64,000 bases of DNA from Streptomyces liangshanensis (GTDB taxonomy: Bacteria; Actinomycetota; Actinomycetes; Streptomycetales; Streptomycetaceae), in NCBI RefSeq assembly GCF_011694815.1, contig NZ_CP050177.1:6269501-6333500 (forward strand), read 5' to 3'. Shown here piece after piece: positions 2,643 to 59,188 of the stretch. Made by a program: the position numbers and the translations under genes. A model generated the notes under the pieces. That model saw nothing but the letters and a program-made list of their open reading frames with translations, ran no database searches and was not told where the DNA came from. Position 1 is the stretch's first letter, and each line of letters opens with the position of its first letter.

Positions 2643-2718
2643 TTGACCGAACGTCAAGGGGAGGGAGTGGGCTCCGCTCCGGAATGATTAGTTCGCCAAG
2701 ACACAGGACGGGGGTCGT

Positions 2719-13960: not shown

Positions 13961-14026
13961 AACTTGGTCTATGGTGGGGACGGGGGAGGTGAGAACGGTG
14001 AGAACGGACGGAGCCAGGAGGTGCGG

Positions 14027-17000
14027 ATGCCCGGGTTCACGCATCTGCGCACCGTCTCCGGGTTCTCCCTGCGGTACGGGGCCTCGCACCCGGAGCGGCT
14101 GGCCGAGCGCGCGGCCGCGCGCGGCATGGACGCCCTCGCGCTGACCGACCGCGACAGCCTCGCGGGCACGGTCCGCTTCGCCAAGGCGTGCGCCGAGGAG
14201 GGGATCCGCCCGCTGTTCGGGGTGGAGCTGGCGGTGGAGGAAGGCGGCCGGGCGGGGGGCGGTGCGGCCGGGCGGGTGCGTGCGGGAGGGGGCGGCGGCG
14301 CTGTCGAGCGGGGACGTGCGTCGGTGGGTTCCGGTGGTGTCGGGTCGGGGCGTACCGGGGCGGCCGGTGGTGAGTGGGGTCGTACGGCGGACGCCGGCGG
14401 GGCCGCGCGCCGGCGCGTGCCCGTGCGGGGCGGGGCCTTCGTCGACGAGTCCGCGCCCCGCGCGGTCTTCCTCGCCCGGGACGGCGCGGCCGGCTGGGCC
14501 GACCTGTGCCGGCTCGTCTCCACCGCGCACGCCGCCGGGGAGGACAGCCCCCTGCTGCCCTGGGGGGACAACCACGGCGACGGGCTGACCGTGCTCCTCG
14601 GGCCCGGCTCCGAGACCGGCCGGGCCCTCGCGGCGGGCCGCCCCGACCGGGCCGCGCGGCTCCTCGCGCCCTGGCGCGAGATCTACGGGGACGCGCTGCG
14701 CCTGGAGGTCGTGCACCACGGCCGTACGGGCACCGGGCCCGGATCGCTGCGGCACGCCGCCCGCACGCTCGGGTTCGCCACCGAGCAGGGGGTACGAGCC
14801 GTCCTCAGCAACGCCGTGCGCTACGCCGACCCCGGGCAGGGGCCCGTCGCCGACGTGCTCGACTCGGCCCGCAGGCTGATGCCCATCGACCCGCGCGGCA
14901 CCCTCGACAGCGGGGAGCGCTGGCTCAAGGGGCCGGACGCGATGGTCCGTACCGCCGAGCTGGTCGCCGAGGCCGCCGGATTCCGGCGGGACATCGCCCA
15001 CCGGCTGCTCGCCCTGACCGAGGAGACCGCCGCGAGCTGCGTGGTCGACCCCGAGGACGACCTCGGCATCGGCACCGTCCACTTCCCCGAGCCCCGGCTG
15101 GTCGGCGCCGACCGCCGCAGCGCCTCGCGGGTGCTGCGCTCCCGCGCCGCCGCCGGGATGGTGCTGCGCGGCTACGACCGGCGCGGTGACCACCGGGAGT
15201 ACTGGGACCGGATGGACGACGAGCTGCGCACCATTGACCGACTGGGCTTCGCCTCCTACTTCCTGACGGTGGCTCAGGTCGTGTCCGACGTGAAGGGCAT
15301 GGGGGTCAGGGTCACCGCGCGGGGCTCGGGCGCGGGGTCCCTGGTCAACCACCTGCTGGGCATCGCCCACGCGGACCCGGTCGCGCACGGCCTGCTGATG
15401 GAACGTTTCCTCTCCACGCGCAGGGAAGGACTCCCCGACATCGACATCGACGTCGAGTCCGCGCGGCGGCTGGAGGTCTACCGCGCGATCCTCGACCGGT
15501 TCGGCCCCGAGCGGGTCGCGGCCGTCGCCATGCCGGAGACGTACCGGGTGCGCCATGCCGTACGGGACGTGGGCGCGGCCCTCTCCATGGACCCCGCCGA
15601 GATCGACCGGATCGCCAAGTCCTTCCCCCACATCCGGGCCAGGGACGCCCGCGCCGCCCTGGAGGAACTGCCCGAACTGCGCGCGCTCGCCGGGGAGTCG
15701 GAGCGGGGAGGCGCGAAGTACACCCGGCTGTGGGACCTGGTGGAGGCGCTGGACGCGCTGCCGCGCGGGATCGCCATGCACCCGTGCGGGGTGCTCCTCT
15801 CGGACGCCTCGCTGCTGCGCCGCACCCCGGTGGTGCCGACCAGCGGCGAGCACTTCCCCATGTCCCAGTTCGACAAGGAGGACGTCGAACGGCTGGGGCT
15901 GCTCAAACTCGACGTGCTGGGCGTACGGATGCAGTCGGCGATGGCGCACGCCGTCACGGAGATCGCGCGCGCCACGGGCGAGGACCTGGACCTGGACGAT
16001 CCGGCGCAGGTCCCGGAGGGCGACCCGGAGACGTACCGGCTGATCCGCTCCGCCGAGACCCTGGGCTGCTTCCAGATCGAATCGCCGGGGCAGCGCGACC
16101 TGGTCGGCCGGCTCCAGCCCGCGACCTTCCACGACCTGGTGGTCGACATCTCGCTCTTCCGGCCGGGACCGGTGGCGGCCGACATGGTGCGCCCGTTCAT
16201 CGAGGCCCGGCACGGCCGGGCGCCGGTCCGCTACCCGCACGCCGACCTGGAGGAGGCGTTGAGCGAGACGTACGGGGTGGTCGTCTTCCACGAACAGATC
16301 ATCCGGATGGTCGACATCATGACGGGCTGCGGCAAGGAGGAGGCGGACAAGGTGCGCAGGGGGCTGTCCGACCCGGAGTCGCAGGGCAGGATCCGGGCCT
16401 GGTTCGAGCGGCGGACGCGGGAGCGGGGGTACGCGCCCGACGTGACCGCGCGCACCTGGGAGATCATCGAGGCGTTCGGCTCGTACGGCTTCTGCAAGGC
16501 GCACGCGGTCGCGTTCGCCGTACCGACCTACCAGTCGGCGTGGCTCAAGGCGCACCACCCGGCCGCCTTCTACGCCGGACTGCTCACCCACGACCCGGGG
16601 ATGTACCCGAAGAGGCTGCTGCTGGCGGACGCGCGGCGGCGGGGGGTGCCGGTGCTGCCGCTGGACGTGAACCGGTCGGCCGTCACCCATCACATCGAAC
16701 TGGTGTCCGATGGGGCCGCGCGGCCGGGGACCTGGGGGCTGCGGCTGGCGCTCTCCGACGTCCACGGCATCAGCGAGGCGGAGGCGGCACGGATCGAGGC
16801 GGGGCAGCCGTACTCCTCGCTGCTGGACTTCTGGCAGCGGGCCCGGCCGGGCCGCCCGGTGGCCGAACGGCTCGCGCAGGTCGGCGCGTTGGACGCCTTC
16901 GGCGCCAACCGCCGGGACCTGCTGCTGCACCTGTTCGAACTGCACGGCGCCCAGCGCGGAGCGGGGTCCCGCGGTGACCAACTCCCGCTCGGCGGAGGGC

Positions 17001-17626
17001 AGCGGACCGCTCCCGTCGGACTGCCCGACCTGGGCGACGCGGAGCGCCTGAGCGCCGAGTTGGGCGTGCTCGGCATGGACGCCTCCCGCCATCTGATGGA
17101 GGACCACTACGCGTTCCTCAAGGAGCTCGGCGCGTTCTCCGCCAAACGCCTGCGGGACGTGCCCCACGGCGCGACCGTCCTGGTGGCGGGGGCCAAGGTG
17201 GCGACCCAGACCCCGCCGATCCGCTCCGGCAAGCGGGTCATCTTCACCACGCTGGACGACGGGACGGGCCTGGTCGACCTGGCCTTCTTCGACGACAGCC
17301 ACGAGGCGTGCGCGCACACGGTGTTCCACTCCTGGCTGCTGCTGGTACGGGGGGTGGTGCAGCGGCGCGGGGCGCGGAGCCTGAGCGTGGTGGGGGCGGC
17401 GGCGTGGAACCTGGCGGAGCTGGTGGAGCTGCGGAAGGAGGGCGGCCTGGAGGCGGTCGCGGCGGCACTGGACGCGCCCGCGCCTGCTCCGTCCGGGGAC
17501 AACGGCCGGCGGATCAGGCTGCCCACCGGCTACGAGATGAACCCGTGGTCCGACCTCCGGCCGCCCGGCGAAGGCCTGCCCACCGGGCGGAAGTTGTGGC
17601 ACTCCAGCCCGGGGAGCGCGGGATGA
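14027..17626 (+). CDS. dnaE2: Error-prone DNA polymerase III alpha subunit DnaE2
   Basis: A 1199-residue C-family polymerase used in damage-induced translesion synthesis. The N-terminal PHP domain starts FTHLRTVSGFSLRYGASHPE. An Arg/Gly-rich insertion follows at about residues 70-140 (unusually low complexity). The palm carries catalytic aspartates in LPDIDIDVES (about 470). The fingers include FRPGPVAADMVRPFIEARHG and SYGFCKAHAVAFA. The OB domain is near 1040-1140, and the C-terminus KLWHSSPGSAG is characteristic of DnaE2. ATG 14027 follows AGGAGG (14016-14021) at 5 nt; in-frame GTG 14021 overlaps the RBS and is unlikely. The stop overlaps the next start (ATGA), giving an operon with the ImuB-like gene. 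An SOS box lies upstream. Confidence 0.95.
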   Translation: MPGFTHLRTVSGFSLRYGASHPERLAERAAARGMDALALTDRDSLAGTVRFAKACAEEGIRPLFGVELAVEEGGRAGGGAAGRVRAGGGGGAVERGRASVGSGGVGSGRTGAAGGEWGRTADAGGAARRRVPVRGGAFVDESAPRAVFLARDGAAGWADLCRLVSTAHAAGEDSPLLPWGDNHGDGLTVLLGPGSETGRALAAGRPDRAARLLAPWREIYGDALRLEVVHHGRTGTGPGSLRHAARTLGFATEQGVRAVLSNAVRYADPGQGPVADVLDSARRLMPIDPRGTLDSGERWLKGPDAMVRTAELVAEAAGFRRDIAHRLLALTEETAASCVVDPEDDLGIGTVHFPEPRLVGADRRSASRVLRSRAAAGMVLRGYDRRGDHREYWDRMDDELRTIDRLGFASYFLTVAQVVSDVKGMGVRVTARGSGAGSLVNHLLGIAHADPVAHGLLMERFLSTRREGLPDIDIDVESARRLEVYRAILDRFGPERVAAVAMPETYRVRHAVRDVGAALSMDPAEIDRIAKSFPHIRARDARAALEELPELRALAGESERGGAKYTRLWDLVEALDALPRGIAMHPCGVLLSDASLLRRTPVVPTSGEHFPMSQFDKEDVERLGLLKLDVLGVRMQSAMAHAVTEIARATGEDLDLDDPAQVPEGDPETYRLIRSAETLGCFQIESPGQRDLVGRLQPATFHDLVVDISLFRPGPVAADMVRPFIEARHGRAPVRYPHADLEEALSETYGVVVFHEQIIRMVDIMTGCGKEEADKVRRGLSDPESQGRIRAWFERRTRERGYAPDVTARTWEIIEAFGSYGFCKAHAVAFAVPTYQSAWLKAHHPAAFYAGLLTHDPGMYPKRLLLADARRRGVPVLPLDVNRSAVTHHIELVSDGAARPGTWGLRLALSDVHGISEAEAARIEAGQPYSSLLDFWQRARPGRPVAERLAQVGALDAFGANRRDLLLHLFELHGAQRGAGSRGDQLPLGGGQRTAPVGLPDLGDAERLSAELGVLGMDASRHLMEDHYAFLKELGAFSAKRLRDVPHGATVLVAGAKVATQTPPIRSGKRVIFTTLDDGTGLVDLAFFDDSHEACAHTVFHSWLLLVRGVVQRRGARSLSVVGAAAWNLAELVELRKEGGLEAVAAALDAPAPAPSGDNGRRIRLPTGYEMNPWSDLRPPGEGLPTGRKLWHSSPGSAG

Positions 17627-20930: not shown

Positions 20931-21469
20931 GAAGTGGTTCTCCTTCTGAGCGGCACCAGCTGCGGGAGCTGTACAGGCGAACAGTGCGGAGCGGGGGAGG
21001 CGCCGGCGGACGAAGCAACCTCCCGATGCCCCGCCTTCCGGTGCCGACCCCGCTCCGGCGCTCAGCAAACTAGCCGCTCCCGAGCCCCGGATCCGCCGTC
21101 ACCAGGGGGCGGAGCCGATCCTTATGCCTCCGTTAAGGAAGACCTAAGAAGCCCCTGAGGAAACCGCCGCGGGCCCGGGCGCACCACCGCGCGGGCCTCC
21201 GGGGCGAGTTGGCGGATCGGCTCGTCCTTCTGTCCTTTGCCAGGGGAAAGTTCCTTCCCGCCGACGCCGCGAATCGTGACCCCACCCTTCTCAACTTTCA
21301 CGTGAGTCACAACGAAGCGCGTGGGCAGTGCCTTTGAACCTCCCTGGCCCCACCCGCTCCCGCGTGGGAACTTTGCCTTCCGCTTACCTGCTCTTGACTC
21401 TTGGTGCAGCGGTTCTCTAATCTCTCGCACATCGTCGACACATCGGTCGGAAGCCAACAGGGGAGAACC
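20931..21469. other. Intergenic region at the left border of the PKS cluster
   Basis: About 540 nt between divergent genes, noticeably less GC-rich than its surroundings between 21210 and 21469. It must hold the LPMO promoter and that of the flavin monooxygenase. The short ORFs in it show no family features. No regulator gene or insertion sequence is seen. Confidence 0.5.
21394..21421 (+). promoter_or_regulatory. Candidate promoter of the flavin monooxygenase gene
   Basis: TTGACT (21394-21399), 16 nt, then TCTAAT (21416-21421), about 48 nt before ATG 21470. The -35 is one base from consensus and the region is AT-rich, a good candidate for the left-hand promoter of the cluster. Confidence 0.5.
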
Positions 21470-22708
21470 ATGTACGACGTTATTGTCGTGGGCGCACGCT
21501 GTGCAGGATCGCCTGTCGCCATGCTTTTGGCCCGCCAAGGTCACCGCGTTCTGATGGTTGATCGTTCATCATTTCCCAGTGACGCGGTTTCGACCCACTA
21601 CATTCACCAGGCCGGCCTTTCCCGCCTGAAGGACTGGGGGCTGCTCGACGAGGTCATCGACGCGAAGACACCGGCGATCCGCAAGATGAACTTCTCGTAC
21701 CGCGGCATCGAATTGAACGGATTCGCCGAGCCCATCGACGGAATCGACGCGGTGTACTGCCCGCGCCGCGTCGTCCTCGACGAGATCCTCGTCAACGCGG
21801 CGCGCCGCGCCGGTGTGGAGGTCATCGAGGGCTTCACCGTCTCCGGAGTGGTCTCCTCCGACGGCCGGGTGACCGGTATCCGGGGGCGTACGGGCGACGG
21901 CCCCGAGCGGGAGTTCCGCTCGACGGTCGTGGTGGGCGCCGACGGGTTCCATTCCACGGTCGCCAAGGCGGTGGGCGCCGGGCTCTACAACGTCCGCCCC
22001 GCCTCCGGATTCATCTACTACTCGTATTTCAGCGGCCTCGACTGGGGCCTGAACCACAAGACCGGGTTCAACGAGAACTGGATCGGCACGTGGCCCACCA
22101 ACGGCGACGTCACCATGCTGGCCACCATCTGCGCCCGTGACCAGCTCAAGGAGTTCCGCCAGGACGTCGACAACCGCTTCCAGGGGGTCTTCGACGACAT
22201 CGTGCCCGAGCTCGGCGCCGAGCTGCGCGACCGGGGCACCCGCGAGGAGCCCTTCAAGCCGATGCGCTACCCGGACAACTACTACCGGCAGGCCCACGGC
22301 CCGGGCTGGGCCCTGGTCGGCGACGCCGGCTACCACAAGGACCCGCTCACCGGCTGGGGCATCACGGACGCCTTCCTGCACGGGGAGCTGCTCGCGGCCC
22401 GGCTCCACGAGGGCCTGGCGGGGGAGCGGCCCATGGAGGAGGCCCTCGCCGAGTACCAGGCGACGCGCGACGAGGAGAGCGCGGGGGTGTACGACTACAC
22501 CACCACCCTCGCCGAGCTCACCCCTCTGCCGCCGTTCCTCGACCTGGTCCTCAGCTCCGTCAGCACCAGCCAGGAGTGGACGGACAAGATGCTCGGCCTG
22601 ATAGCCGGCGGCGTCGAGGACCACGAGATCTACGCGCCGGACAACCTGAAGCGCCTCTTCGACGACGCGGGTGTCCCCGAGGAGAAGCGGCTCTACGACT
22701 TCTCCTAG
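21470..22708 (+). CDS. FAD-dependent monooxygenase / oxidoreductase (PHBH fold)
   Basis: A 412-residue class A flavoprotein. The N-terminal dinucleotide motif is YDVIVVGARCAGSPVA, followed by an acidic end of strand 2 (VLMVDRSSFP). The second FAD motif is VVGADGFHSTVA. The GD motif is VGDAGYHKDPLTGWGITDA (about 282-300). It resembles hydroxylases and reductases of the geranylgeranyl-reductase-like group, with no transmembrane segment. ATG 21470 follows CAGGGGAG. It is the first gene of the cluster, separated by 272 nt from the Rieske gene, so it may have its own promoter and terminator. It is probably a tailoring hydroxylase or N-oxidase acting on the glycine-derived head or the polyene. The substrate is not predictable; the cluster assignment rests on position only. 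Confidence 0.8.
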   Translation: MYDVIVVGARCAGSPVAMLLARQGHRVLMVDRSSFPSDAVSTHYIHQAGLSRLKDWGLLDEVIDAKTPAIRKMNFSYRGIELNGFAEPIDGIDAVYCPRRVVLDEILVNAARRAGVEVIEGFTVSGVVSSDGRVTGIRGRTGDGPEREFRSTVVVGADGFHSTVAKAVGAGLYNVRPASGFIYYSYFSGLDWGLNHKTGFNENWIGTWPTNGDVTMLATICARDQLKEFRQDVDNRFQGVFDDIVPELGAELRDRGTREEPFKPMRYPDNYYRQAHGPGWALVGDAGYHKDPLTGWGITDAFLHGELLAARLHEGLAGERPMEEALAEYQATRDEESAGVYDYTTTLAELTPLPPFLDLVLSSVSTSQEWTDKMLGLIAGGVEDHEIYAPDNLKRLFDDAGVPEEKRLYDFS

Positions 22709-22980: not shown

Positions 22981-24128
22981 ATGACGCGCGCGTCCAGCAT
23001 GTTCGATCTCATTGACGAGCAGGATGAGGAAAGGCCCTATTTCGAGACGGGCGGGGTCGGCCGTTCGCACGACTTCTACACCGGTGAGCGCCAGCACCGG
23101 CGGGAGATGGCGCGGATCTACGGCCGGCGCTGGCTGCCGGTGGACCACGTGTCCCGGCTGAAGGAGAAGGGGTCGTACAGCACCCTCAACATCGGCACCG
23201 GCTCCGTGCTGCTGATGCACGGTGACAACGGCATCCAGGCGTACCACAACTACTGCCGGCACCGGGGTTACAAGCTGGTGGAGGAGGCCACGGGCAAGCG
23301 CCAGAGTGTGGTGTGTCTCTACCACTGCTGGGTGTACGACAGGAACGGCAAGCTCAAGAGCCTCAACGGCACCTACTTCGACCACTTCTTCGAGAAGGAG
23401 AAGAACGGGCTGGTGCCGGTCAGGACCGAGGTCAGGTTCGGTGTGGTCTTCATCGCGTTCTCCGACGACGCGCCCGATCTCGACGCCTCCCTGGGGCAGT
23501 TCGGCGAGTTCGCCCGGGTCTACGAGCTGGCCGAGCTGGAGTGTGTGCAGGCGAAGGACTACCCGGTCGCCTCGAACTGGAAGCTCGTCGCGCACAACGT
23601 CAACGAGAGCCTGCACTTCCCCACCGCGCACAAGGACCTGCACCGCATCACCGACTTCGACGACGCCGGCACGTACGACCTCAAGGGCGACATCGTCGGC
23701 GCCTGGCAGTCGATCCGCGGGGGCTACAACTCCGTCTCCATGACGGGGCGCAGCGGGCGCTCGCCCATGCCGCTCGTCCCCGAGGGCGACCAGCAGAAGA
23801 TCAACTGGATCACCATCCTGCCCAACCTCCTGTTCGGCTTCACCGCCGACTACGTGATGATGCAGTGGGTCTGGCCGGAGAGCCCCGGCACCTGTTTCGT
23901 ACGGCACTTCTGGCTCTTCCACCCCTCGGAGACCGCCAAGGACGACTTCTCCCACGAAGCGGTGTTCGCGCTCTGGGACAAGGCCAACTACGAGGACTGG
24001 GAGCTGTGCGAGCGCACCCAGCGCGGCCTGTCCAACCCGATGTGGGCGCCGGGCCAGCTCTCCCTCGACGAGGAAGTCGTCTCGCAGATCGACGCGTGGG
24101 TCGCCCGCGAGACCGAAGAGGACGAGGG

Positions 24129-24132
<4 letters not shown>
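22981..24132 (+). CDS. Rieske non-heme iron oxygenase
   Basis: A 383-residue alpha-subunit-type Rieske oxygenase. The [2Fe-2S] ligands are Cys92/His94 (YCRHRG) and Cys112/His115 (CLYHCW) with 17-residue spacing. The mononuclear iron site is His212 and His217 in NESLHFPTAH, with Asp339 (YEDWELCERTQRG) as the likely third ligand. The catalytic set is complete. Enzymes of this type hydroxylate, desaturate, demethylate or N-oxygenate (PrnD-like amine oxidation is one precedent) and need a separate reductase, which is absent here. It starts the main biosynthetic operon after RBS GGGGAG and overlaps the first megasynthase by 4 nt (ATGA), so it almost surely acts in the pathway, perhaps on the glycine unit loaded by the next protein. 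Confidence 0.9.
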
Positions 24133-33823
<9,691 letters not shown>

Positions 33824-33827
<4 letters not shown>

Positions 33828-36800
33828 CCCACCGGGTGGAGACGTACGAGAAGACCTTCGCCGGCACCGACTCCTTCATCGCCCAGCACCGGTCCGCCGG
33901 TACGGGGATCCTGCCGGCCTCGATGCAGCTGGAGATGGCCGTCCTCGGCCTGCTCCGGCGCGGGGAGTTCACCCCTCTGGAGCTCACCGACCTGGCGTTC
34001 CTCCGGCCGTTCGCCGTACCCGCCGACGGCCACGGCATCGTCACCCTGGACGTGACCTTCGGCCCGCACCCCCGCTTCGAACTCACCGCGGGCCCGGACC
34101 GCAAGGCGCTGTCCACCGGATCGGGCCGGCCGCTGCCCGCCGCCCCGGCCGGCGTCACCGCGTGGGAGGTCCCCCGCGAGGAGCGGGTCACGCCCGAGGC
34201 GCTGTACGGCAGTTGGGCGCGGCACGGCCTGGAGTACGGCCCCGACTTCCGTACCGTACGGGACCTCCGCGTCGCGGACGGATCCGCCGAGGCCGTCCTG
34301 CGCAGCGACGCGGAGCCCCTGCCCTGGTACGCCCATCCGCTGCTCGTGGACGGGGTGTTCCAGGTGGTGAGCTGCGCGCTCCAGGACCCCGCGGAGCGCT
34401 CGGCGCCCGTACCGCTGCTGCCGATCGGCGTGGAGCGGTTCGCCCTCCTTCCCGGATTCGCCGGGCTCACGGGCCCGGTGACCGTCCGCGTCCGCAGGAC
34501 CGCCGTGGAGGGCGCGTACTCGGTGGCGGACGCCCTCGTCCTCACCCCGGCCGGTGAGGTCGTCGCCGAACTGACCGGTGTGCGCATGCGCCGTCTGCCC
34601 CGGGCGGCCTCGCCCGGGAGCGCGGCCCTCACGCGGCTCGCCACCCGCGTCCACTGGACCGGGGCACCCGCCCCCGCGCCCCGCGAACCCGCCACCGGGA
34701 CCTGGGTGGTCCTGCACCACGGCGACACCCACGCCCTGGGCGTCCGTACCGCCCGCGCCCTGCGGGCCGAGGGCGCCGAGGTGGTCGAGGTGGTGCCCGG
34801 AGGACCGGCGGGTGCGGCCGGCGGGGCGGATGCGGCCGATGCGGCCGGTTCCGCCGATGCGGCGGACGGCCGCCGGATTCTCCCCGAGATCGACGAGGAG
34901 GCCTTCCGGCGACTGTGGGAGGACCTCCCCGGGCCCGTCGAGGGTGTGGTGCACCTGTGGAACACCGGACCGGTCAGGCCGGCCCGCGACGAACTGCGCA
35001 CCGGCCTGTACGGAGCCCTCGCCGCGGTCAAGACGCTCGGCGAACGACAGCGCAAGGCACGGTTCTTCGTCGTGACCGAGCAGGCGCAGCCGGTGGCGGA
35101 CCGGGACCGGCCGGTGCCGGAGCGGGCGGCGGTCTGGGGCCTGATCCGGACGGCGGCCATCGAGTATCCCGGGCTGCGCCCGCGCCTCGTGGACGTCGGC
35201 CCGCTGGGGAGCGCGGAGGCCGCCGCCGGATCCGTGGCGGCGGCCCTGACCAGGACGGCACCGGCGGAGGGCGACGCGCTCCTGGCCGAGCTGGGCGGCG
35301 CGGGCCCGGTCGAGATCGCCTACCGCGACGGCGTGCGCCACCAGCCGGAGCGGGTGCCCCTGGACGGGCCCGGCGCGGCCCTGACCGGCCCTGACCGGCC
35401 GGGCGTCGACCGGTCGGGCGTCGGCCTGCCGGCCGCTGACCGGCCCGGGATCCGTCGGGGCGGGCGCTACCTGGTCCTCGGCGGGCACGGCGGCCTCGGC
35501 CTGGAGGTCGCCGCGCGCTTCGCCCGCGAGGGGGCCGCTGTGGTCGGCCTCGTCAGCCGCTCGGGGCGCGGCGACCGGGAGCGGCTCGCGGCGATCGAGG
35601 CGTACGGCTGCGCCGTCGTCTCCTTCGCCGTCGATGTCGCGGAACCGGGTGCCCTGACCGCCGTGGTGGCCGGATTCCGGGAGCAGTTCGGCGCGCCGCA
35701 CGGCGTCGTGCACGCGGCCGGGACGCTCAAGGACGGGCTGATCCGCGGCGCCACCGCCGACGACGTCGCCGCCGTCCTGCGCCCCAAGGCCGACGGCCTG
35801 CGCGAGCTGGCCGCCGCCGTCGCCGGGACCGACCTCGACTTCGCCGTCCTCTTCGCCTCCGTGTCGGGCACCTTCGGCAACCTCGGGCAGGCGGGGTACG
35901 CGGCCGCCAACGCCTACCTCGACGCGTTCGCCCACGCCCACGGGGCGCCGTGGACCAGCATCGACTGGGGCCTGTGGGGCGAGGTCGGCATGGGCACCGC
36001 CGCGGCCGACCAGCTGCGCCGCCGGGGTGTCCGGCCGCTGGGGACGGCCGAGGCGCTCGACGCGCTGACGGCGGCGCTGCGGGGGGACGTACGCCAACTG
36101 GTCATCGCCCACGCGGACGTCGATCCGCGCGCGGAGCGGGCCGAGCGCGCCGACGCTGCCGTGGAGCCGGACGGGCAGGACCGGCCGGACGGCTCGGGGG
36201 CGGCGGCCTCGGACCGTGTCCGCGACCAACTGGCCGCCTTCCTCGGCGAACGTCTCGGTGTCGCCGGCTTCGACCGGAAGGCGCCGCTCGCCGACTACGG
36301 CATCAACTCCATCATGAGCGTGGAGCTTTCGGAGGAACTGTCCCGCCGCTGGGACGTCCGGCTGCCCGCCACGCTGTTCCTGGAGTACGCGGACTTCGCC
36401 GATCTCGCCGACGCCCTGACCGAGCGGTACGGGGTCAGCCCGGAGGCGCCGACTCCCGTACCGCACAGCGCTGTTGAGCCGCAGGCCCCAGCGACCGCCA
36501 CTGCGACTGTGCCTGTGACTGCGGCACAGGCACCGGAGCGAATACCGGCACCACGAATACCGGCGCCACAAGCGCCGGCCCCCCGCCGCGCCCCGCGCCC
36601 CGGCGACATCGCCGTCGTCGCCGTGTCCGGGGACCTCCCCGGCGCCACCGACCAGGCGGCGTTCTGGCGGATGCTGCGTTCCGGCGGACACGCCTTCACC
36701 GACGTCCCCGCCGAACGCTGGAGCGCCGACGCCCACTTCGAGGACCGCGGGCCGCACATGACGGGGACGTACTGCCGTACCGGCGCCTTCGTCTCCGGGC

Positions 36801-43024: not shown

Positions 43025-43058
43025 GCCCGTGCCGGACCGACCGTACGAAGGGAGTGCT

Positions 43059-49000: not shown

Positions 49001-49334
49001 CACCCTGGGGCGCGCCTGCCTGCCGGATCCGGCAGTCAGTTGGTCGCACACCCTGCGCCGGGGCCACCCCGACCAGGAGCAACTGCACACCGCGCTGGTC
49101 GCGCGTCACCACCAGGGTCACACCGACATCGCCTGGGACGCGGTCCACCGGGGCGGCGACGGGCGTGTCACCACCCTCCCCGCCTACCCCTTCGACCGGC
49201 AGCGCTTCTGGATCACCGGAGCCGCGCCCGCCGCGGCGGCACCGACACCACCGGCCCCCACGACCTCACTCCGGCATTCCCTGCCACCTACCCACCCGAG
49301 CTTCACCCCGAAGAAAGCGTCAGCGACATCATGA
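43059..49334 (+). CDS. PKS C: KS5-(decayed AT)-DH5-ACP5-KS6-AT6
   Basis: A 2091-residue PKS. KS5 has Cys184 (TACSSS) and IGHLHSASG. About 270 residues follow (430-700), including CAGVAAALALRDLGL and TLEEALADVLSQE. They read like an AT whose GHSxGE nucleophile motif has been lost (PPGWGP at that place). DH5 has His758 and Asp915; ACP5 has Ser1091 (GFDSV). KS6 has Cys1354 (NTLCSSS). AT6 has Ser1800 in GHSVGE with malonyl-type HAFH, and is roughly three-quarters identical by eye to AT2. GTG 43059 follows AAGGGAG at 5 nt; GTG 43029 is in frame but has no RBS. It ends 35 residues after the post-AT linker and overlaps alkC by ATGA. Its last module is completed by protein D, on the other side of alkC. 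Confidence 0.91.
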   Translation: MTDDSPIAVIGMAVRLPGAEDTVDLSRMVTREDVEVDEVPASRWARELYRGEGRHQGTHHRGAFLQDPFSFDHDAFGMTPEDAVLLDPQQRLMLEVGARALEDAGYLGTRRRLDAGVFVGARMNSYGFDHGRGLSPDPSEEGPGPLAGGPVPAALWGRSQNFVASWLSDRFDLSGPSLVVDTACSSSLTAVWLACQSLRTGACEMAVVGAVDLLIDPLTFVLLSRTGALSKDGLCHTFDERANGYVPGEGAASLVLKPLAAARADGDLILGALTGVAVNNDGRTMGVTTPNLEAQVELLTKVYGKVDPSTVQYVEAHGTGTAIGDPIEVRALTEVFGKYGAGRGTVALGSLKRRIGHLHSASGLAGLAKIITCLRDGVLPATAVERPNPRLGLDASPFHLPATSRPWPEAAVRRAGISGFGFGGTNAHVVAEAVPGATAAGGTGSGPDGTVTARAVEVLTLSADSPDGLRELAAQWTAFLPSAADDLGNVCATARLARPHRAERLVVTGTDADALVTALRSRLLGSGVPGPRDPSYTVVVRPAEAAAPPAWLSALHRSHPSVRDVVARFEEASGLRLARFSGLLLRICAGVAAALALRDLGLPERAVDLPPGWGPVADFTRGRVTLEEALADVLSQENRAQDGTSAAGAPPGELCGRLARATDDRQVEAVFAAVAAEVHESGQDVDWTAFQADVAWAKRQLPFAQPRGGSLDLREPLRSPEPGSPTVLSTDTDTGTGEGAGYAFSRVFGPGEVPVAQHSVYRKIMLPGVAWFDFLRQGAELRGNTFHGVRDVLFHRPLIPSGAVRVECRVDGDGGFTVEEAGGAEPYVTGRFVTDPGPAPAPEPLDTLLPACSRLHAGSGLYRWLRRIGYHHGRYYRNISWVAALPGGGTLARIEGGRQRAMNPSGVRLFPGLLDSVTIAAIDPDNPVFGAEDASAFIPLSADRVLVHGSLDEAAYVRTEVAFWNEEACRVTQVVTDEAGRVLLVFGDIASKRVPLRAFGGDEEAGTPVVVREKGPDQHPEPERTPAPAEAPAETPAPPPAPVAVSPGVSSDVRRAAHSSPEARVLGWFLDLTGIPAEHADTEFLSAGFDSVGLVGLSERVTRENGVPLYPTVFFEYPTPRAFAAHLVGEAPEFVASLEHTRPAEPREAAPEPPPQEAAPAPQPPAPPVRRTPPAPAPVSAPTPFTGSPRDIAVVGAAIRVPTARTLDAYWSLLSEGRDTVRTPPADRRSHHGNAHGDDRPAAPPQASFLETVDEFDPAPFRISAREAPLIDPQARIVYETIWEALEDAGRLGDRARDSRTGLWIAYSHDHYHEERARHGVAAGRGLGLEAMIPNRLSYLMDWNGPSVVVNTLCSSSLVALHTALQHLRAGDIDTAVIGGVHAAISPEYFRSMGDLMALSPRHRCRAFDHSADGFVPGEGAAAIVLRRHEDAERAGDRVRGLVKGAAVNHGGRTTRYSAPSPRAQREVITAALADAGTGVTVDSIGMVEAHGTGTSLGDPIEVDGLTRAWRPHTDRAQFCAIGSLKSNIGHLEPAAGLAALVKVLLAMEHEEIPPTLHVTRPNDHIRFEDTPFYVADRPVPWARTDDGSPRRAALSAFGMGGVNAHVIIEEPPAIPVRERPARDSHVLRVSGATEQAVRTLASAYADALAARPDSALADFTLTANAGRSAQRHRVAVRGATAAELAARLREIGRGELPVSRQSNLAEPTAFLFTGQGSQYAGMGRGLYDAEPAFREAVDECAELAAPYTERPLLEVLFGAEPGVVDRTRFAQLGIVSVQVGLVRLLESWGIRPGAVLGHSVGELSAAWAAGVVSLADLMRLTAIRGRLMQDCPATGTMAVVHADADAVRAALADHPAVEIAAFNAPRAITVSGPTAALDAFCRATAHRTQRLTVSHAFHSAAMDGALAPFAEAVAGTKLSAPRVPLISTLSGDWHTEATVTDPSVWAESVRRPVLFAPGLARVHEAGTRAFWEIGPSPVLTTLGRACLPDPAVSWSHTLRRGHPDQEQLHTALVARHHQGHTDIAWDAVHRGGDGRVTTLPAYPFDRQRFWITGAAPAAAAPTPPAPTTSLRHSLPPTHPSFTPKKASATS

Positions 49335-50452
49335 GCACCGAGTACGGACTGAAGCGGCACTTCAACGGCGACGCGGCTCGCCTCCTCGGCGGAAAGATCC
49401 GCGCGGTCCATCCGGCGTTCGACGTCGACGGCTATGCCGCCGAGGTCGAACGGCTGATTCCCGGCAAGGAACTGAAGGACCGCGTCCTGGTCCTCGCCGA
49501 GGGCCTGCGCAGCCGGCTCCCCGAGGACTACGTCGAGGCCGTGGGCATCCTCGTCTCCATCCTTGAGGACGAACTCGCCGAGGGCGAGGGGATGTTCAAC
49601 GTCAGCTGGTTCCTGATGCCGGTCGCCCGGTTCGTCGAGGAGTACGGCCTCGACCACCCCGAGGTGTCCTTGGACGCGCTGGTCGAGATCACCAAGCGGC
49701 ACACGGCGGAGTACGCGATCCGGCCCTTCATCGAGCGGCACTACGACGTGACGATGAGCCGCATGCCCGCGTGGGTCACCGACCCGAGCCACAACGTCCG
49801 GCGCATGGCCAGCGAGGGCACCAGGTCGCGGCTGCCCTGGGCCCGCACCCTGACCCTCTTCGTCAAGGACCCCGCCCCGGTGCTCGCGGTGCTCGAACCC
49901 CTGCGCAGCGACCCCTCCGAATACGTCCGCAAGTCCGTCGCGAACAACCTCAACGACATCTCGAAGGACGCGCCCGGCCTCGCCCTGGCCACCGCCCTGC
50001 GCTGGACCGAGGAGAGCCCCACCCCCGAGACGGCGTGGATCGTCCGGCACGGCCTGCGCACCCTCGTGAAGAAGGGCGACCAGACCGCGCTCGCGATCCT
50101 CGGGGCCACCGGGGGAGAACACATCAAGGTCCCCGAACTCCGTCTCACCCCGGGCACGTTGACGCTCGGTGACACCTTCGTCCTGCGCGCCGAGATCGAG
50201 AACACCGACACCCGCGCGCACAGTGTGGCCGTCGACTACGTGATGCACCTCGTCCGCAAGAACGGCCGCACGATCCCGAAGGTCTTCAAGCTCTCCACCC
50301 TCGAACTGGCCCCGGGGGAACGCAGGACGCTGGAGAAGGCCCACACGATCAAGGAGATCCAGACCCGCGCCTACTACCCGGGCGAGCACCTCGTCGACCT
50401 CCAGGTGAACGGCCGGGTCCTGGCCACCGACCGATTCGACCTAGAGCTGTGA
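49331..50452 (+). CDS. alkC: AlkC-family DNA glycosylase (alkylation repair, probable self-resistance)
   Basis: A 373-residue HEAT-like-repeat DNA glycosylase of the AlkC family, which excises N3-alkylated bases without flipping them. Family signatures are plain: FVEEYGLDHPEVSLDAL, YAIRPFIERHYDVTM, VRRMASEGTRSRLPWA, KDPAPVLAVLEPLRSDPSEY and VRKSVANNLNDISKDAP, covering about residues 20-250. A C-terminal Ig-like beta domain (about 262-373: LRLTPGTLTLGDTFVLRAEI...YPGEHLVDLQVNG) is the form reported for full-length AlkC. The gene overlaps PKS C by ATGA and PKS D by GTGA, so it is translated as part of the megasynthase operon and lies between the two halves of one module. The related AlkD-like YtkR2 protects the yatakemycin producer. 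By analogy I infer self-resistance to a DNA-alkylating product. Confidence 0.93.
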   Translation: MSTEYGLKRHFNGDAARLLGGKIRAVHPAFDVDGYAAEVERLIPGKELKDRVLVLAEGLRSRLPEDYVEAVGILVSILEDELAEGEGMFNVSWFLMPVARFVEEYGLDHPEVSLDALVEITKRHTAEYAIRPFIERHYDVTMSRMPAWVTDPSHNVRRMASEGTRSRLPWARTLTLFVKDPAPVLAVLEPLRSDPSEYVRKSVANNLNDISKDAPGLALATALRWTEESPTPETAWIVRHGLRTLVKKGDQTALAILGATGGEHIKVPELRLTPGTLTLGDTFVLRAEIENTDTRAHSVAVDYVMHLVRKNGRTIPKVFKLSTLELAPGERRTLEKAHTIKEIQTRAYYPGEHLVDLQVNGRVLATDRFDLEL

Positions 50453-54606: not shown

Positions 54607-54915
54607 ATGAGCGAGATCAACGGCAAGGCGTTCTTCGGCGCGGTGCTCAAGGCCATCGCCTGCACCCGCAACCACAACACCGACCAGCGCCAGTACGCCG
54701 AAGGCGTGCTCGAACCCGCCTCCCGCATACGCGAGTTCGAGAAGGAGCTCGGCGAGCGCCCGCCCACCGACGCCGAGGCGGAGCGGGTGCTCGGCTGGCT
54801 GGAGTCGACGTTCCGCACCAAGCACACCCCCGAGGAGGAGCGGGAGCACTACCTCGTCCACATCGCCACCGTCTCCCGGGCCCCCGCCGCGCCCGCCAAC
54901 GCCCTGGCCCCGTAG
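54607..54915 (+). CDS. Small conserved-looking protein of unknown function
   Basis: 102 residues, start ATG 54607 with GAGGGAG 6-7 nt upstream. It is soluble, charged and mostly helical by appearance (ASRIREFEKELGERPP, DAEAERVLGWLESTF), with one Cys and a disordered Ala/Pro tail. I recognise no family. It stands 105 nt after PKS D and 39 nt before the deacylase, in the same direction, so it is probably co-transcribed. It could be a pathway protein (a small binding or chaperone-like partner), but nothing in the sequence shows a reaction. Confidence 0.65.
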   Translation: MSEINGKAFFGAVLKAIACTRNHNTDQRQYAEGVLEPASRIREFEKELGERPPTDAEAERVLGWLESTFRTKHTPEEEREHYLVHIATVSRAPAAPANALAP

Positions 54916-54954
54916 GTGTCGTACGTGCCGCAGCGACCCGCCGAGGAGGCAGGC

Positions 54955-56067
54955 ATGCCGGATCCCGCGTGGTACAGCCACGAGATCTGCTTCTGGCACG
55001 ACCCCGGCCCCGGATCCGGTTACGTACCGGTCGGGCCCGGTGTCGAGCCGCTGCGCCAGTTCGCCGTGGACCCCGACCTGCGCCGGGCGGAGGGGCTGGT
55101 CAGGGCGGCCGGGGTGATGGACCACTTCCGGCAGGTCACCCCCGTACCGGCGAAGGACGACGACCTGCTCCTCGTCCACACGCCGGGGCACGTCGAACGG
55201 GTCGAGGCGGCCTCGGCGCTCGGGGCCGGCGACGCCGGGGTCTACGCGCACGTCAACTACCACAGCGCCCTGGCCGCGCGGCTGGCGGTCGGCGCGTGCG
55301 TCCAGGCCACCGAGGCCGTGCTGGCCGGGACGTACGACCGGGCCTACTGCCTGGTCCGGCCGCCCGGGCACCACGCCGAGCCGGACCGGGCGATGGCGCT
55401 GTGCCTCTACAACAACGTCGCCGTGGCGGCGCGGGCCGCCCAACGCGCCGGCGCGCGGCGGGTGCTGGTCCTGGACTGGGACGTGCACCACGGCAACGGC
55501 ATCCAGCGCGCGTTCTACGACGACCCCGACGTCCTGTACGTGTCGATCCATCAGGACGGCCTCTTCCCGCCCGCCTCCGGACTGGTCACCGAGACGGGCA
55601 CCGGCGCCGCCACCGGGACGACGCTCAACGTGCCGCTGCCGGCCGGGTCGGGCCACGAGACGTACCTCGCGGCCGTCGACCGTCTGGTCGCCCCCGCCGC
55701 GCGGGCGTTCGCCCCCGAGCTGATCCTCGTCGCGGCGGGCGTCGACGCGGGCGGTCACGACCCGATGGGCCGGATGATGTGCACGAGCCGCACCTTCCAC
55801 GCGATGACGTCCGCGCTGTGCGACCTCGCGGACGAACTGACGGGCGGCCGCGTCGTGTTCGCGCACGAGGGCGGCTACTCCGCCTGGTACCAGCCGATGC
55901 TGGTCCTCGGCACGGCGTCCGCGATCGCCGGCCTCCCGGAGCCGCAGGACCCCTTCCTGCACTCCCTGGAACACCTGCCGGGACAGCGCCTCCAGCCCCA
56001 TCACCGGCGCGTGGTCGAGCACTTGGAGAACCACCATCCGCTGCTCGCCGGGAGGGCGCGGCCATGA
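54955..56067 (+). CDS. Class II HDAC-family zinc deacylase
   Basis: A 370-residue histone-deacetylase-superfamily enzyme close to bacterial HDAH/acetylpolyamine amidohydrolases. The N-terminus SGYVPVGPGVEPL is typical of that group. The catalytic pair is His139/His140 (PPGHHAE). Zinc ligands are Asp176 and His178 (DWDVHHGNG) and Asp264 (GVDAGGHDPMG). Tyr308 (HEGGYSAWY) completes the site. All key residues are present, so it should remove an acyl group from an amine. ATG 54955 follows GAGGAGG at 5 nt; an in-frame GTG at 54916 is worse. It overlaps the thioesterase gene by ATGA. Options in this cluster are removal of the starter N-formyl or another N-acyl mask, or a resistant target copy if the product inhibits HDACs. 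Both are inference. Confidence 0.9.
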   Translation: MPDPAWYSHEICFWHDPGPGSGYVPVGPGVEPLRQFAVDPDLRRAEGLVRAAGVMDHFRQVTPVPAKDDDLLLVHTPGHVERVEAASALGAGDAGVYAHVNYHSALAARLAVGACVQATEAVLAGTYDRAYCLVRPPGHHAEPDRAMALCLYNNVAVAARAAQRAGARRVLVLDWDVHHGNGIQRAFYDDPDVLYVSIHQDGLFPPASGLVTETGTGAATGTTLNVPLPAGSGHETYLAAVDRLVAPAARAFAPELILVAAGVDAGGHDPMGRMMCTSRTFHAMTSALCDLADELTGGRVVFAHEGGYSAWYQPMLVLGTASAIAGLPEPQDPFLHSLEHLPGQRLQPHHRRVVEHLENHHPLLAGRARP

Positions 56068-56879
56068 CCGCCGACTGGCTGATGAAGCTCGGCACGGGCG
56101 CGCGGGGTCCCGGCGGCCGTACCCGCCTCCGTCTCCTCGCCCTGCCGCACGCGGGCGGCTGGCCGTCCGCGTTCCGTACCTGGCGGCGCGTGCTCCCGCC
56201 GGACGTCGAGCTCCTCGTGGCCCAACTCCCCGGCAGGGGAACGCGCATGGACGAGCCGCCGCTGCGCCGGGTCGAACCCCTCGTCGAGGGGCTGACCCGC
56301 GCGGTGGCCGCACTGGAACCCCTCCCGTACGTGATCCTCGGGCACAGCTTCGGCAGTGTCCTCGGCTACGAACTCGCCAAGGCGCTCGAACGCAAGGGCC
56401 TCCCGCCCCGCCTGCTCGCCGTGTCCGCGCGCCAGCCCCCGTGCTTCCCCAGCGAGGCGCCCTTCGCGCATCGCAGGACGGACGCCGAACTCCTCGACCA
56501 CCTGGTGGAGATGGGCGGCATCTCGCCGGAACTCATCAGCCGCACGGACCTCGTCCGGGGCGCGCTCACGGCGATACGGGCCGACCTGGAAGCCATGGAG
56601 ACCTACCGCCGCCCCCTGTCGGGCACGGCGGTCCCGATCCTGTCGCTCGGCGCGGTGGACGACCCCGTCGTCATCGCCGAGCGGCTGCACCTGTGGTCGC
56701 TGGAGACCACGGGCCCCTTCGACCGGCTGATGTTCACCGGCGGTCACTTCTACCTGTACGCCCCCGGCGTCGCGACCTCCGTCGCCCGCCGGCTTCTCAC
56801 GGACACCGGCGGCGTCCGCACCGGAGACAACAGCCGCCCGTACGACCGATCACCGTTCCACCGAAAGGACATGTTGTGA
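56064..56879 (+). CDS. Type II (editing) thioesterase
   Basis: A 271-residue alpha/beta-hydrolase of the NRPS/PKS type II thioesterase family. It has LLALPHAGGWPSAFRTWRR near the N-terminus, the nucleophile in LGHSFGSVLGYELA (about 92-105), an Asp in LGAVDDPVV, and the catalytic His in FTGGHFYLYA. Such enzymes hydrolyse stalled or mis-primed acyl groups from carrier proteins. With chain release assigned to the oxoamine synthase, editing is its likely job, which matters in a line with many carrier domains and few ATs. It overlaps the deacylase upstream (ATGA) and the exporter downstream (4-nt GTGA). Confidence 0.9.
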   Translation: MTADWLMKLGTGARGPGGRTRLRLLALPHAGGWPSAFRTWRRVLPPDVELLVAQLPGRGTRMDEPPLRRVEPLVEGLTRAVAALEPLPYVILGHSFGSVLGYELAKALERKGLPPRLLAVSARQPPCFPSEAPFAHRRTDAELLDHLVEMGGISPELISRTDLVRGALTAIRADLEAMETYRRPLSGTAVPILSLGAVDDPVVIAERLHLWSLETTGPFDRLMFTGGHFYLYAPGVATSVARRLLTDTGGVRTGDNSRPYDRSPFHRKDML

Positions 56880-58477
56880 GCACGATCACCGCCCCCCACC
56901 ATCGGGCCGGACCACGCGAGTGGCTCGGTCTGGCCGTGTTGGCCCTGCCGACACTGCTGCTGTCCATCGATGTGAGCGTGCTGCACCTCGCGGTACCCCA
57001 TGTCAGCGCGAGCCTGGACCCCAGCTCCTCGCAGATGCTGTGGATCATCGACATCTACGGCTTCACCATCGCCGGGTTCCTCGTCACCATGGGCACCCTC
57101 GGCGACCGCATCGGCCGCCGCAAGCTGCTCGTCATCGGCGCGGCCGTCTTCGGACTCGCCTCGGTGGCCGCCGCCTACGCCACGAGCCCGGCGACGCTCA
57201 TCGCGGCACGCGCCGCCCTCGGGGTCGCCGGCGCCACGCTCATGCCGTCGACCCTCGCCCTGATCAGCAACATGTTCCGCGACGCGAAGCAGCGCGGCGT
57301 GGCGATCGCGGTCTGGGTGACGATGTTCTCCCTCGGGATCGCGATCGGCCCGGTCGTCGGCGGCGCCCTGCTCGAATACTTCTGGTGGGGCTCGGTCTTC
57401 CTCCTCGGCGTGCCGGTCATGCTGGTCCTGCTGGTGGCCGCGCCGCTGCTGCTGCCCGAGTACCGCGACCCGGAGGCCGGCCGTGTCGACCTGACCAGCG
57501 TGGCGCTGTCCCTGGCCGCGATCCTTCCGGTGGTCTACGGGATCAAGGAGCTGGCGGCCGGCAACGGCGTCCCGGTGCCCGTCGCCGCGATCGTCGTGGG
57601 GGCGGCGCTCGGCTGGGTGTTCGTCCGCAGGCAGCGCACCCTGGAGAGCCCGCTGCTCGACCTGCGGCTGTTCCGGAACCGCACGTTCGCCACCTCGCTC
57701 GTGGCGCTGTTCCTCAGCATGTTCGTGGCGGGCGGCACGTACCTGTTCGTCACGCAGTACCTCCAGCTCGTCGCGGGCCGCTCCCCGATGTCGGCCGGAC
57801 TGTGGCTGCTCCCCGCGGCCTTCGCGCTCATCGTGACCTCGATGCTCGCCCCGGTCGCCACCACCTGGCTGCGCCCCTCGTACGTCGTGGGTGTCGGACT
57901 GCTCGTCTCGGCGGCCGGCCACCTCACGCTGAGCCTCGCCGACAGCACGTCGGGCGTGACCCAGGTCGTGACGGGCTTCCTCCTGGTGTACGCGGGCGGA
58001 GGCCCCCTGATCGCCCTCGGCACCGACCTCGTGGTCGGGTCCGCGCCGCCCGAGCAGGCGGGCTCGGCCTCCTCGCTGTCCGAGACGAGTACGGAGCTGG
58101 GCATGGCGCTCGGCGTCGCCGTCCTCGGCAGCCTCGGCACGGCCGTCTACCGCGCCGAGCTGACCGTGCCGGGCGGCGTCCCCGCCCGGGCGGCCGACGC
58201 CTCCGAGGACACCCTCGCCGGGGCGGTCGAGCACGCGCGGGGCCTGTCCGGCGACCTCGGCCCGGCGCTGCTCGCCGAGGCGCGTGACGCGTTCACGAGC
58301 GGGCTGAACGCCATCGCGATCGTGGGGGCCGTGCTGGCCCTCGGCACGGCCGTGCTGGTGGCGGCGGTCATCAGGACGCCCGCCTCGGGCGGCGGCGAGG
58401 CCCCGGAGCCGGGCGGGGACGCGCCGTCCGGCGTGCCGGCGCAGGCCAAGGCGCAGGACGGCAGCCTCACTTCCTGA
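56876..58477 (+). CDS. MFS exporter, DHA2 (14-TMS) family
   Basis: A 533-residue drug:H+ antiporter of the EmrB/QacA type. The first helix is WLGLAVLALPTLLLSIDVSVLHLAVP with the DVSV... motif of DHA2 proteins; motif A is GTLGDRIGRRKLL. About 14 hydrophobic segments can be counted. The tail is Gly/Pro/Glu-rich and disordered. It starts at GTG 56876, overlapping the thioesterase stop. As the last gene of the operon it is the best candidate for export of the cluster product and a second layer of self-protection besides AlkC. Confidence 0.92.
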   Translation: MSTITAPHHRAGPREWLGLAVLALPTLLLSIDVSVLHLAVPHVSASLDPSSSQMLWIIDIYGFTIAGFLVTMGTLGDRIGRRKLLVIGAAVFGLASVAAAYATSPATLIAARAALGVAGATLMPSTLALISNMFRDAKQRGVAIAVWVTMFSLGIAIGPVVGGALLEYFWWGSVFLLGVPVMLVLLVAAPLLLPEYRDPEAGRVDLTSVALSLAAILPVVYGIKELAAGNGVPVPVAAIVVGAALGWVFVRRQRTLESPLLDLRLFRNRTFATSLVALFLSMFVAGGTYLFVTQYLQLVAGRSPMSAGLWLLPAAFALIVTSMLAPVATTWLRPSYVVGVGLLVSAAGHLTLSLADSTSGVTQVVTGFLLVYAGGGPLIALGTDLVVGSAPPEQAGSASSLSETSTELGMALGVAVLGSLGTAVYRAELTVPGGVPARAADASEDTLAGAVEHARGLSGDLGPALLAEARDAFTSGLNAIAIVGAVLALGTAVLVAAVIRTPASGGGEAPEPGGDAPSGVPAQAKAQDGSLTS

Positions 58478-58554: not shown

Positions 58555-59022
58555 TTACGTACGGTCGGCGGCGCCGTCGTCCGGCGCGTCGGCTCCCTCG
58601 GCGGCGGCGAAGGCCGCGGCGAACTCGGGCGCCGGCTCGATGGGCGTGATGATGTCGACGAGGACGCCGTCCGGGTCGGCCACGATGAAGTGCCGCTGCC
58701 CGAAGTCCTCGCTGCGCAGCGGGAGGACCGGCGTCAGGCCGGCCCGGTCGACCAGGCGGGCGTGCTCGGCGTCCACGTCGTCCACCTCCAGGTTGAGCAA
58801 CAGGCCCTGCGCGGGCCTGCGGTAGGCGGCCGGCATGGTCGGATGGCTCGCGTCGAGCAGCGCCAGCTCGTAGAACGGCGGCTCGGGGCGGCGCAGGCTC
58901 ACGTACCAGTCCGAGGCGAACGTCTTCTCGAAGCCGAACAGGGTCGTGTAGAACTCCAGGGACTCCGGCAGGTGTTCGCTACAGATCACCGGATAGAAGC
59001 TGGTCACGCTGGGGGCGCTCAT
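58555..59022 (-). CDS. VOC-superfamily (glyoxalase/bleomycin-resistance fold) protein
   Basis: A 155-residue single VOC domain pair: [27 protein letters not shown], then [21 protein letters not shown] and [21 protein letters not shown]. Metal-ligand-like positions (Glu/His) are present, but the activity (glyoxalase, drug binding or isomerase) is unclear. It ends in an Ala/Glu/Asp-rich tail. ATG 59022 follows AGGAACGG; the longer in-frame start at 59115 is unlikely. It faces the cluster across the 50-bp palindrome, so it is probably outside it, though a drug-sequestering role cannot be excluded. Confidence 0.78.
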
Positions 59023-59188
59023 CGGATTCACCGTTCCTGGTGGGTCAGTGGGGCCGCGGCGGGAGGCCCGGAGCCGGCCGCCGCTGAACCCCACCAGTAT
59101 GGAACTCTTTGCCAAGATTTTATGACCAACAGGGTTCTCCCGGCGCGTTATCGCCCGTTCGGGTGAGCGGGCCCGCCGGAGGACACCC

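Follow-up and report, generated by a model that had tools for sequence, protein, structure and literature searches.

The AlkC gene and its product

Why should a polyketide synthase (PKS) operon carry a DNA repair gene between the two halves of a single module? The question is raised by a 64,000-nucleotide stretch of the Streptomyces liangshanensis genome (contig NZ_CP050177.1, positions 6,269,501–6,333,500; hereafter the window), in which the gene for a 373-amino-acid AlkC DNA glycosylase (49331..50452, + strand; assigned by reading frame, similarity to solved AlkC structures and predicted fold) lies inside a biosynthetic operon and overlaps its neighbor on each side by four bases. Starting from the observed gene identity, domain order, overlaps and conservation, we think it likely that AlkC protects the producer by excising bases modified by the cluster’s own product, a predicted DNA alkylator. 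We hold more tentatively a wider proposal: that AlkC is a third glycosylase family in self-resistance, that widespread formylglycine-primed, aminoketone-releasing PKS clusters make a DNA-alkylating genotoxin, and that the antidote is wired into the terminal module, such that the releasing half is never made without it.

A sequence search matched residues 6–371 of the window AlkC to the solved AlkC structures 5vi0 and 5vhv (E = 1.4e-65). The predicted model, built on an alignment of 33 sequences, had a mean predicted local distance difference test score (pLDDT) of 94.2. It was helical up to about residue 258 and formed a beta domain thereafter, so that both the solenoid of HEAT-like repeats and the C-terminal beta domain were present. 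The top structural match was the DNA-bound Pseudomonas fluorescens AlkC (5vhv; template modeling (TM) scores 0.88/0.91). The catalytic pair of that enzyme, which we take to be E121 and D203, corresponds through the alignment to solved AlkC to E127 and D209 of the window protein, and both residues were invariant in 121/121 aligned AlkC proteins; a length threshold of >300 amino acids kept 113/120 proteins in the AlkC set. The Pfam family DNA_alkylation was a narrow pass (21.8 bits versus a cut-off of 21), and an NCBIfam search of the protein gave no match. Sequence and model together indicate that the 49331–50452 product is an AlkC DNA glycosylase by family, in agreement with the initial annotation, which had been made from the DNA letters and their open reading frames. 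Two other memberships were rejected: AlkD/YtkR2, because AlkC was best by both sequence and fold and AlkD2 gave just E = 3e-7 over residues 141–230; and AlkZ/HTH_42, because PF06224 was absent from the Pfam matches up to E = 0.1.

Position of alkC in the operon

The PKS polypeptide upstream of alkC, P3 (43059..49334, +), has the order KS5-DH-ACP-KS6-AT in the domain search and ends directly after KS-AT; its start was picked by eye, and another in-frame GTG occurs at 43029. The downstream polypeptide, P4 (50449..54501, +), reads DH-KR-ACP-oxoamine synthase. It supplies the rest of module 6 together with the releasing domain, a pyridoxal phosphate (PLP) enzyme of the BioF/Kbl type, i.e., an oxoamine synthase. 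The alkC gene sits between the KS-AT and DH-KR-ACP halves. Its start overlaps the P3 stop in an ATGA (49331..49334, +), and the P4 start overlaps its stop in a GTGA (50449..50452, +); both overlaps, which the initial annotation had described, were confirmed in the sequence. The third-codon-position GC content (GC3) of alkC was 0.94, like that of neighboring genes (0.91–0.97).

That annotation had also presented alkC as embedded in a split module. The halves on P3 and P4 do flank alkC, and this part stood; the gene is not, however, the cause of the split. The junction between the two preceding PKS polypeptides, P1 and P2 (window 33815–33840), also falls between AT and DH; there the two genes overlap in a GTGA with nothing between them, both here and in four relatives. 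We therefore rejected an alkC insertion as the origin of the AT|DH split and concluded that alkC occupies a split point that it did not create. Splitting between AT and DH seems to be a rule of this PKS, and four-base overlaps were found also at the Rieske|P1 and P1|P2 junctions.

Conservation of the alkC slot

Named genomes were scanned for AlkC loci (best 80 of 560 loci), and flanks were compared over 111 loci. The best 13 of the 80 (L003–L015), with AlkC identities of 75–97%, came from Streptomyces, Micromonospora, Nonomuraea and Microtetraspora. In 13/13 the alkC gene encoded 373 amino acids, the PKS-side stop fell 1 or 5 bases inside alkC, and the P4 start lay within the alkC stop. P4 was downstream in 13/13, and KS-AT homology was upstream in 12/13 (L008 begins 211 bp before alkC). 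Because slot, both overlaps and length were the same in all 13 sister loci, we concluded that the placement of alkC is beyond chance. Random scattering of AlkC homologues among Streptomyces operons, which the initial annotation had named in advance as the outcome that would count against it, is rejected by this slot in 13/13 sister loci and by the presence of AlkC in all 14 Rieske-positive genomes among the 392 described below.

The second group of loci (L083–L094), some of whose genomes, with that of L095, apparently duplicate those of L003–L016, had P4 in 12/12 and P3 in 11/12; L089 begins 211 bases before alkC, with a KS-AT-type end visible by eye. The whole syntenic cluster was present in four complete-genome loci (identities: FAD oxidoreductase 75–80%, Rieske oxygenase 89–91%, AlkC 76–78%, HDAC-like protein 83–84%). 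Between the window and L003, AlkC was 97% identical and P2–P4 were 80–85% identical (best segments). The slot was also kept in genome G638 and in a Nocardiopsis-type genome (G597). Farther away, P1–P4 were found in the available flanks of 0/64 of L019–L082 and 0/17 of L095 and L096–L111; that is, the AlkC loci at 34–49% identity (n = 64) had no PKS of this type in their available flanks, and neither P4 nor KS-AT was found in those of L016 (73%) and L017 (64%). Mapped over AlkC trees, the in-cluster label required 7 changes (88 rows) versus 9 (79 rows), with standalone rows shifting between trees and context missing for many rows; we make no case for a single-clade origin of in-cluster AlkC.

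Genome-wide searches, which scored the first few candidates per genome such that misses are possible, gave the same association. Among 392 genomes of the genus, the cluster’s Rieske oxygenase occurred at an identity of at least 86% in 14 and AlkC at an identity of at least 71% in 15, and all 14 were among the 15 (Fisher p = 8e-25, relatedness ignored). The next-best AlkC match reached 46% identity (48% in a single 95-residue piece) and the next-best Rieske match 34%, so cluster-type and other proteins were cleanly separated. Among 394 genomes of the class, which include the window’s genome and others of its genus, 3 carried the Rieske protein at E ≤ 1e-80, each with AlkC in the slot, and 6 carried AlkC at E ≤ 1e-100. 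The slot was checked in the flanks of 15/16 distinct Rieske-positive genomes (G375 left out). AlkC was thus present in 14/14 genus and 3/3 class genomes with the cluster, although its frame is broken in L018 and in pieces in G375. From this retention and the conserved slot we concluded that AlkC belongs to the fixed gene set of an orphan cluster family, whose assembly line begins with a formyltransferase-A(probably Gly)-PCP loader.

The pairing of AlkC with this PKS may reach well beyond Streptomyces, judging from sequence matches. The 120 best AlkC matches and the 120 best oxoamine-synthase matches apparently had 23 contigs in common, a count based on equal contig size, with gene order not seen, in which the shared size 9664 is ambiguous because two AlkC proteins have it; equal size suggests the same contig. 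The apparent shared contigs include those of Actinokineospora, Parafrankia and Nocardiopsis terrae. The AlkC proteins P0104, P0105, P0113 and P0114 (51–53% identity; mostly metagenome) appear to share contigs with the oxoamine-synthase relatives P0231, P0218, P0222 and P0219 (58–66%).

Assembly line and predicted product

Domain searches, combined with comparison to relatives for the genes described as conserved, outlined the rest of the cluster. It contains a conserved FAD_binding_3 oxidoreductase (21467..22708, +), followed by a conserved GbcA/demethylase-like Rieske oxygenase (22981..24132, +). P1 (24129..33827, +) reads formyltransferase-A-PCP-KS1-DH-ACP-KS2-AT and P2 (33824..43024, +) reads DH-KR-ACP-KS3-DH-ACP-KS4-KR-ACP. 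Between P4 and the gene for a histone deacetylase (HDAC)-like amidohydrolase (54916..56067, +; also found in relatives) lies a 102-amino-acid protein conserved in relatives (54607..54915, +), which had no match in an NCBIfam search. An MFS efflux pump follows (56795..58477, +; start codon uncertain, with the frame open from 56441), and a VOC protein of the glyoxalase/bleomycin-resistance fold is conserved beside it (58555..59115, −). The VOC protein matched 3vcx (E = 1.5e-41) and showed weak similarity to a mitomycin-binding protein (E = 6e-4).

Four relatives (G273, G385, G387, G044) showed an additional VOC-like match at 37–41% identity, encoded on the opposite strand, that was not seen in the window; it is a possible further resistance layer.

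The loader formyltransferase was recognized by Pfam (E = 4.8e-13) and by a match to ArnA (E = 7e-15). The pocket residues of the A domain, read by eye, were D-I-L-Q-L-G-L-I-W, which we take to be a glycine code; by its sequence, then, this domain probably activates glycine. The cluster (window 24129–54501) has six KS but two ATs, which accompany KS2 and KS6, and its KS-DH-ACP modules lack an AT. The Cys and first His were kept in all six KS, and KS5 has R in place of N before the second His.

Conglobatin offers a precedent for a formylglycyl starter (PMC4504003). A conglobatin-like oxazole end group was not favored, since no cyclodehydratase was recognized among the cluster genes scanned, in which no dedicated search for one was made. 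In Streptomyces albus J1074, the uncharacterized protein D6B3S9 is described as KR-CP-PLP2; it has a domain of the 8-amino-7-oxononanoate-synthase type, and its cluster is predicted as Gly-Mal-Mal (PMC3870968). That prediction agrees with the one A domain and two ATs of the window cluster, and an S. albidoflavus homologue of P4 was 82% identical across the synthase region. We infer that D6B3S9 belongs to the same cluster family.

The product chemistry, adduct excision and effect of translational coupling proposed next are what we infer from the gene content. A formyl-aminoacyl, probably formylglycyl, starter would be handed along the six KS domains, and the oxoamine synthase would free the chain as an alpha-aminoketone. 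The FAD, Rieske and HDAC-like enzymes would complete the product, and one such step would create or unmask an electrophile. The product would then alkylate DNA bases, AlkC would cleave the N-glycosidic bond of the adducts, and general base-excision repair would complete the job, while the efflux pump, together with the VOC protein, would reduce the amount of free product. Because alkC overlaps its neighbors on both sides, translation of P4 is expected to be tied to that of AlkC, and P4, including its releasing domain, would rarely be translated without AlkC.

AlkC is reportedly a non-base-flipping enzyme, as the title of one paper calls it. Its relative AlkD likewise works without flipping the base (PMC4433238). 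Such a mechanism would give these enzymes access to larger adducts, like those handled by YtkR2 in the yatakemycin producer (PMC9570651).

Alternative explanations

Several observations weigh against a role of AlkC in protection from the cluster’s own product. No domain of the cluster is a sure warhead maker, and the prediction of a DNA alkylator follows from AlkC and its company of pump and VOC protein. Bacillus cereus AlkC failed to remove hedamycin or trioxacarcin adducts (PMC9040887, PMC8934636). By this result the family is no general-purpose remover of bulky adducts, and only a specialized AlkC would be expected to act on one. The host also has other glycosylases: a second, distant AlkC outside the cluster (40% identity, G000:C1:246703-247659) and three AlkZ-like proteins above the cut-off. 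In one sister cluster, L018, the alkC frame is interrupted (139 amino acids) between P3- and P4-type flanks; the PKS genes there are likewise in many pieces, and L018 is probably an error-rich assembly. The 55% complete genome G375 carries AlkC in three pieces, and assembly quality possibly explains the split gene in both cases.

Lastly, close homologues of AlkC occur by themselves in G386/L016, G652, G715 and G427, and as a second copy in G638. In G386 (apparently S. hydrogenans), the lone genome of the 392 with cluster-type AlkC but without the cluster Rieske, genes for an AraC-type regulator and an acetyltransferase lie near AlkC. In G638 the cluster copy was 78% and the standalone copy 69% identical to the window protein, the latter preceded by a TetR-type gene (by eye). 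In G652 (64%) and G715 (58%) AlkC lies in non-cluster surroundings that the two genomes partly share, and no PKS was found in the short flanks of AlkC in G427 (62%); these three and G597 carry one genus label. Because close relatives occur outside clusters, this AlkC subfamily is not exclusive to clusters and has uses elsewhere.

These observations were weighed with three other explanations. AlkC might repair small alkyl damage caused by a by-product or reactive intermediate, such as the formaldehyde of a demethylase-like Rieske step, rather than damage by the secreted end product. The likeness of the Rieske protein to GbcA and a demethylase fits this idea, which we nevertheless judge unlikely: Rieske proteins of other kinds occur in most genus genomes (any Rieske match at E ≤ 0.001 in 253/392), mostly without this AlkC (found in 15/392), and a pump and VOC protein in the cluster suit a toxic end product better. 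Slightly less probable again is that alkC is a hitchhiking gene for general repair, carried in the operon but unlinked to the product. The standalone relatives and the genomes with AlkC but without the cluster would be expected of such a gene; the slot and overlaps kept in 13/13 sister loci across several genera, and the AlkC found in 14/14 plus 3/3 cluster genomes, would not. Least probable, and in our view very improbable, is that the AlkC fold serves as a scaffold or docking factor joining the split module, for although the position of alkC, precisely between AT and DH of module 6 with an overlap to either side, would suit such a role, the P1|P2 junction is divided alike and has no such protein, the catalytic residues are invariant (121/121), and the entire AlkC fold is retained.

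Relation to known systems

Glycosylases acting against natural-product adducts have been grouped into the YtkR2/AlkD and AlkZ/YcaQ families (PMC8934636). No report of AlkC as a cluster resistance gene was found in the literature searched, which excluded most subscription journals and in the available parts of which AlkC appears as a control enzyme. Cluster-borne base-excision self-resistance with AlkC would add a third glycosylase family to the AlkD-like and AlkZ-like ones.

The proposed system resembles that of YtkR2 and C10R5, AlkD-family repair glycosylases encoded in the yatakemycin and CC-1065 clusters against their own alkylators (PMC8626424, PMC9570651). Unlike these, the window protein belongs to the AlkC family and has a C-terminal beta domain, and its cluster encodes a modular PKS with a predicted product. 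Cluster-borne base-excision self-resistance is also known from the HTH_42 proteins AlkZ, HedH4, TxnU and LldU (azinomycin, hedamycin, trioxacarcin and LL-D49194; PMC9040887, PMC8934636), whereas the window AlkC is of another family and has no PF06224 match. The P. fluorescens (5vhv, 5vi0) and B. cereus AlkC proteins share its family and fold; as far as the available texts describe them, they are general alkylpurine glycosylases or controls without a cluster role, whereas the window AlkC lies in a cluster.

Among assembly lines, the conglobatin and oxazolomycin loaders have the formyltransferase-A(Gly)-PCP order of P1, and the first extension module of conglobatin is also split over two proteins (PMC4504003). 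The window cluster differs in its release by oxoamine synthase, and the scan of its genes, which included no dedicated search for a cyclodehydratase, recognized none of the CongE/OzmP type. Release of a PKS chain by an oxoamine synthase is known from SgaAB of Pseudomonas sphingolipids, although that system is monomodular with a separate oxoamine synthase and a lipid product, and AlkC is unmentioned in the available text (PMC12134224). The J1074 cluster of D6B3S9 has a similar PLP domain and a Gly-Mal-Mal prediction that fits the window cluster; the available text names neither its product nor AlkC (PMC3870968).

Our analysis marks the orphan cluster family, present in 14/392 genus genomes, as one that probably makes new genotoxins, and the repair enzyme should read out the chemistry of these predicted compounds. 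If our reading is true, AlkC genes in clusters would join those of the AlkD and AlkZ types as a third bait for resistance-guided mining. The type of adduct could then be predicted from AlkC's preference for alkylpurines with a positive charge. S. albus (albidoflavus) J1074, a common laboratory host, probably carries a related cluster.

Other genes of the window

About 4 kb before the cluster (window 13964–17626) lies a large protein that by eye looks like an error-prone DnaE2-type polymerase; it had no match in the relatives’ stretches searched. Farther upstream (window 158–7981), radical-SAM-like, TIR-like and tetratricopeptide-like genes resemble, by eye, those of an FxSxx-COOH peptide system.

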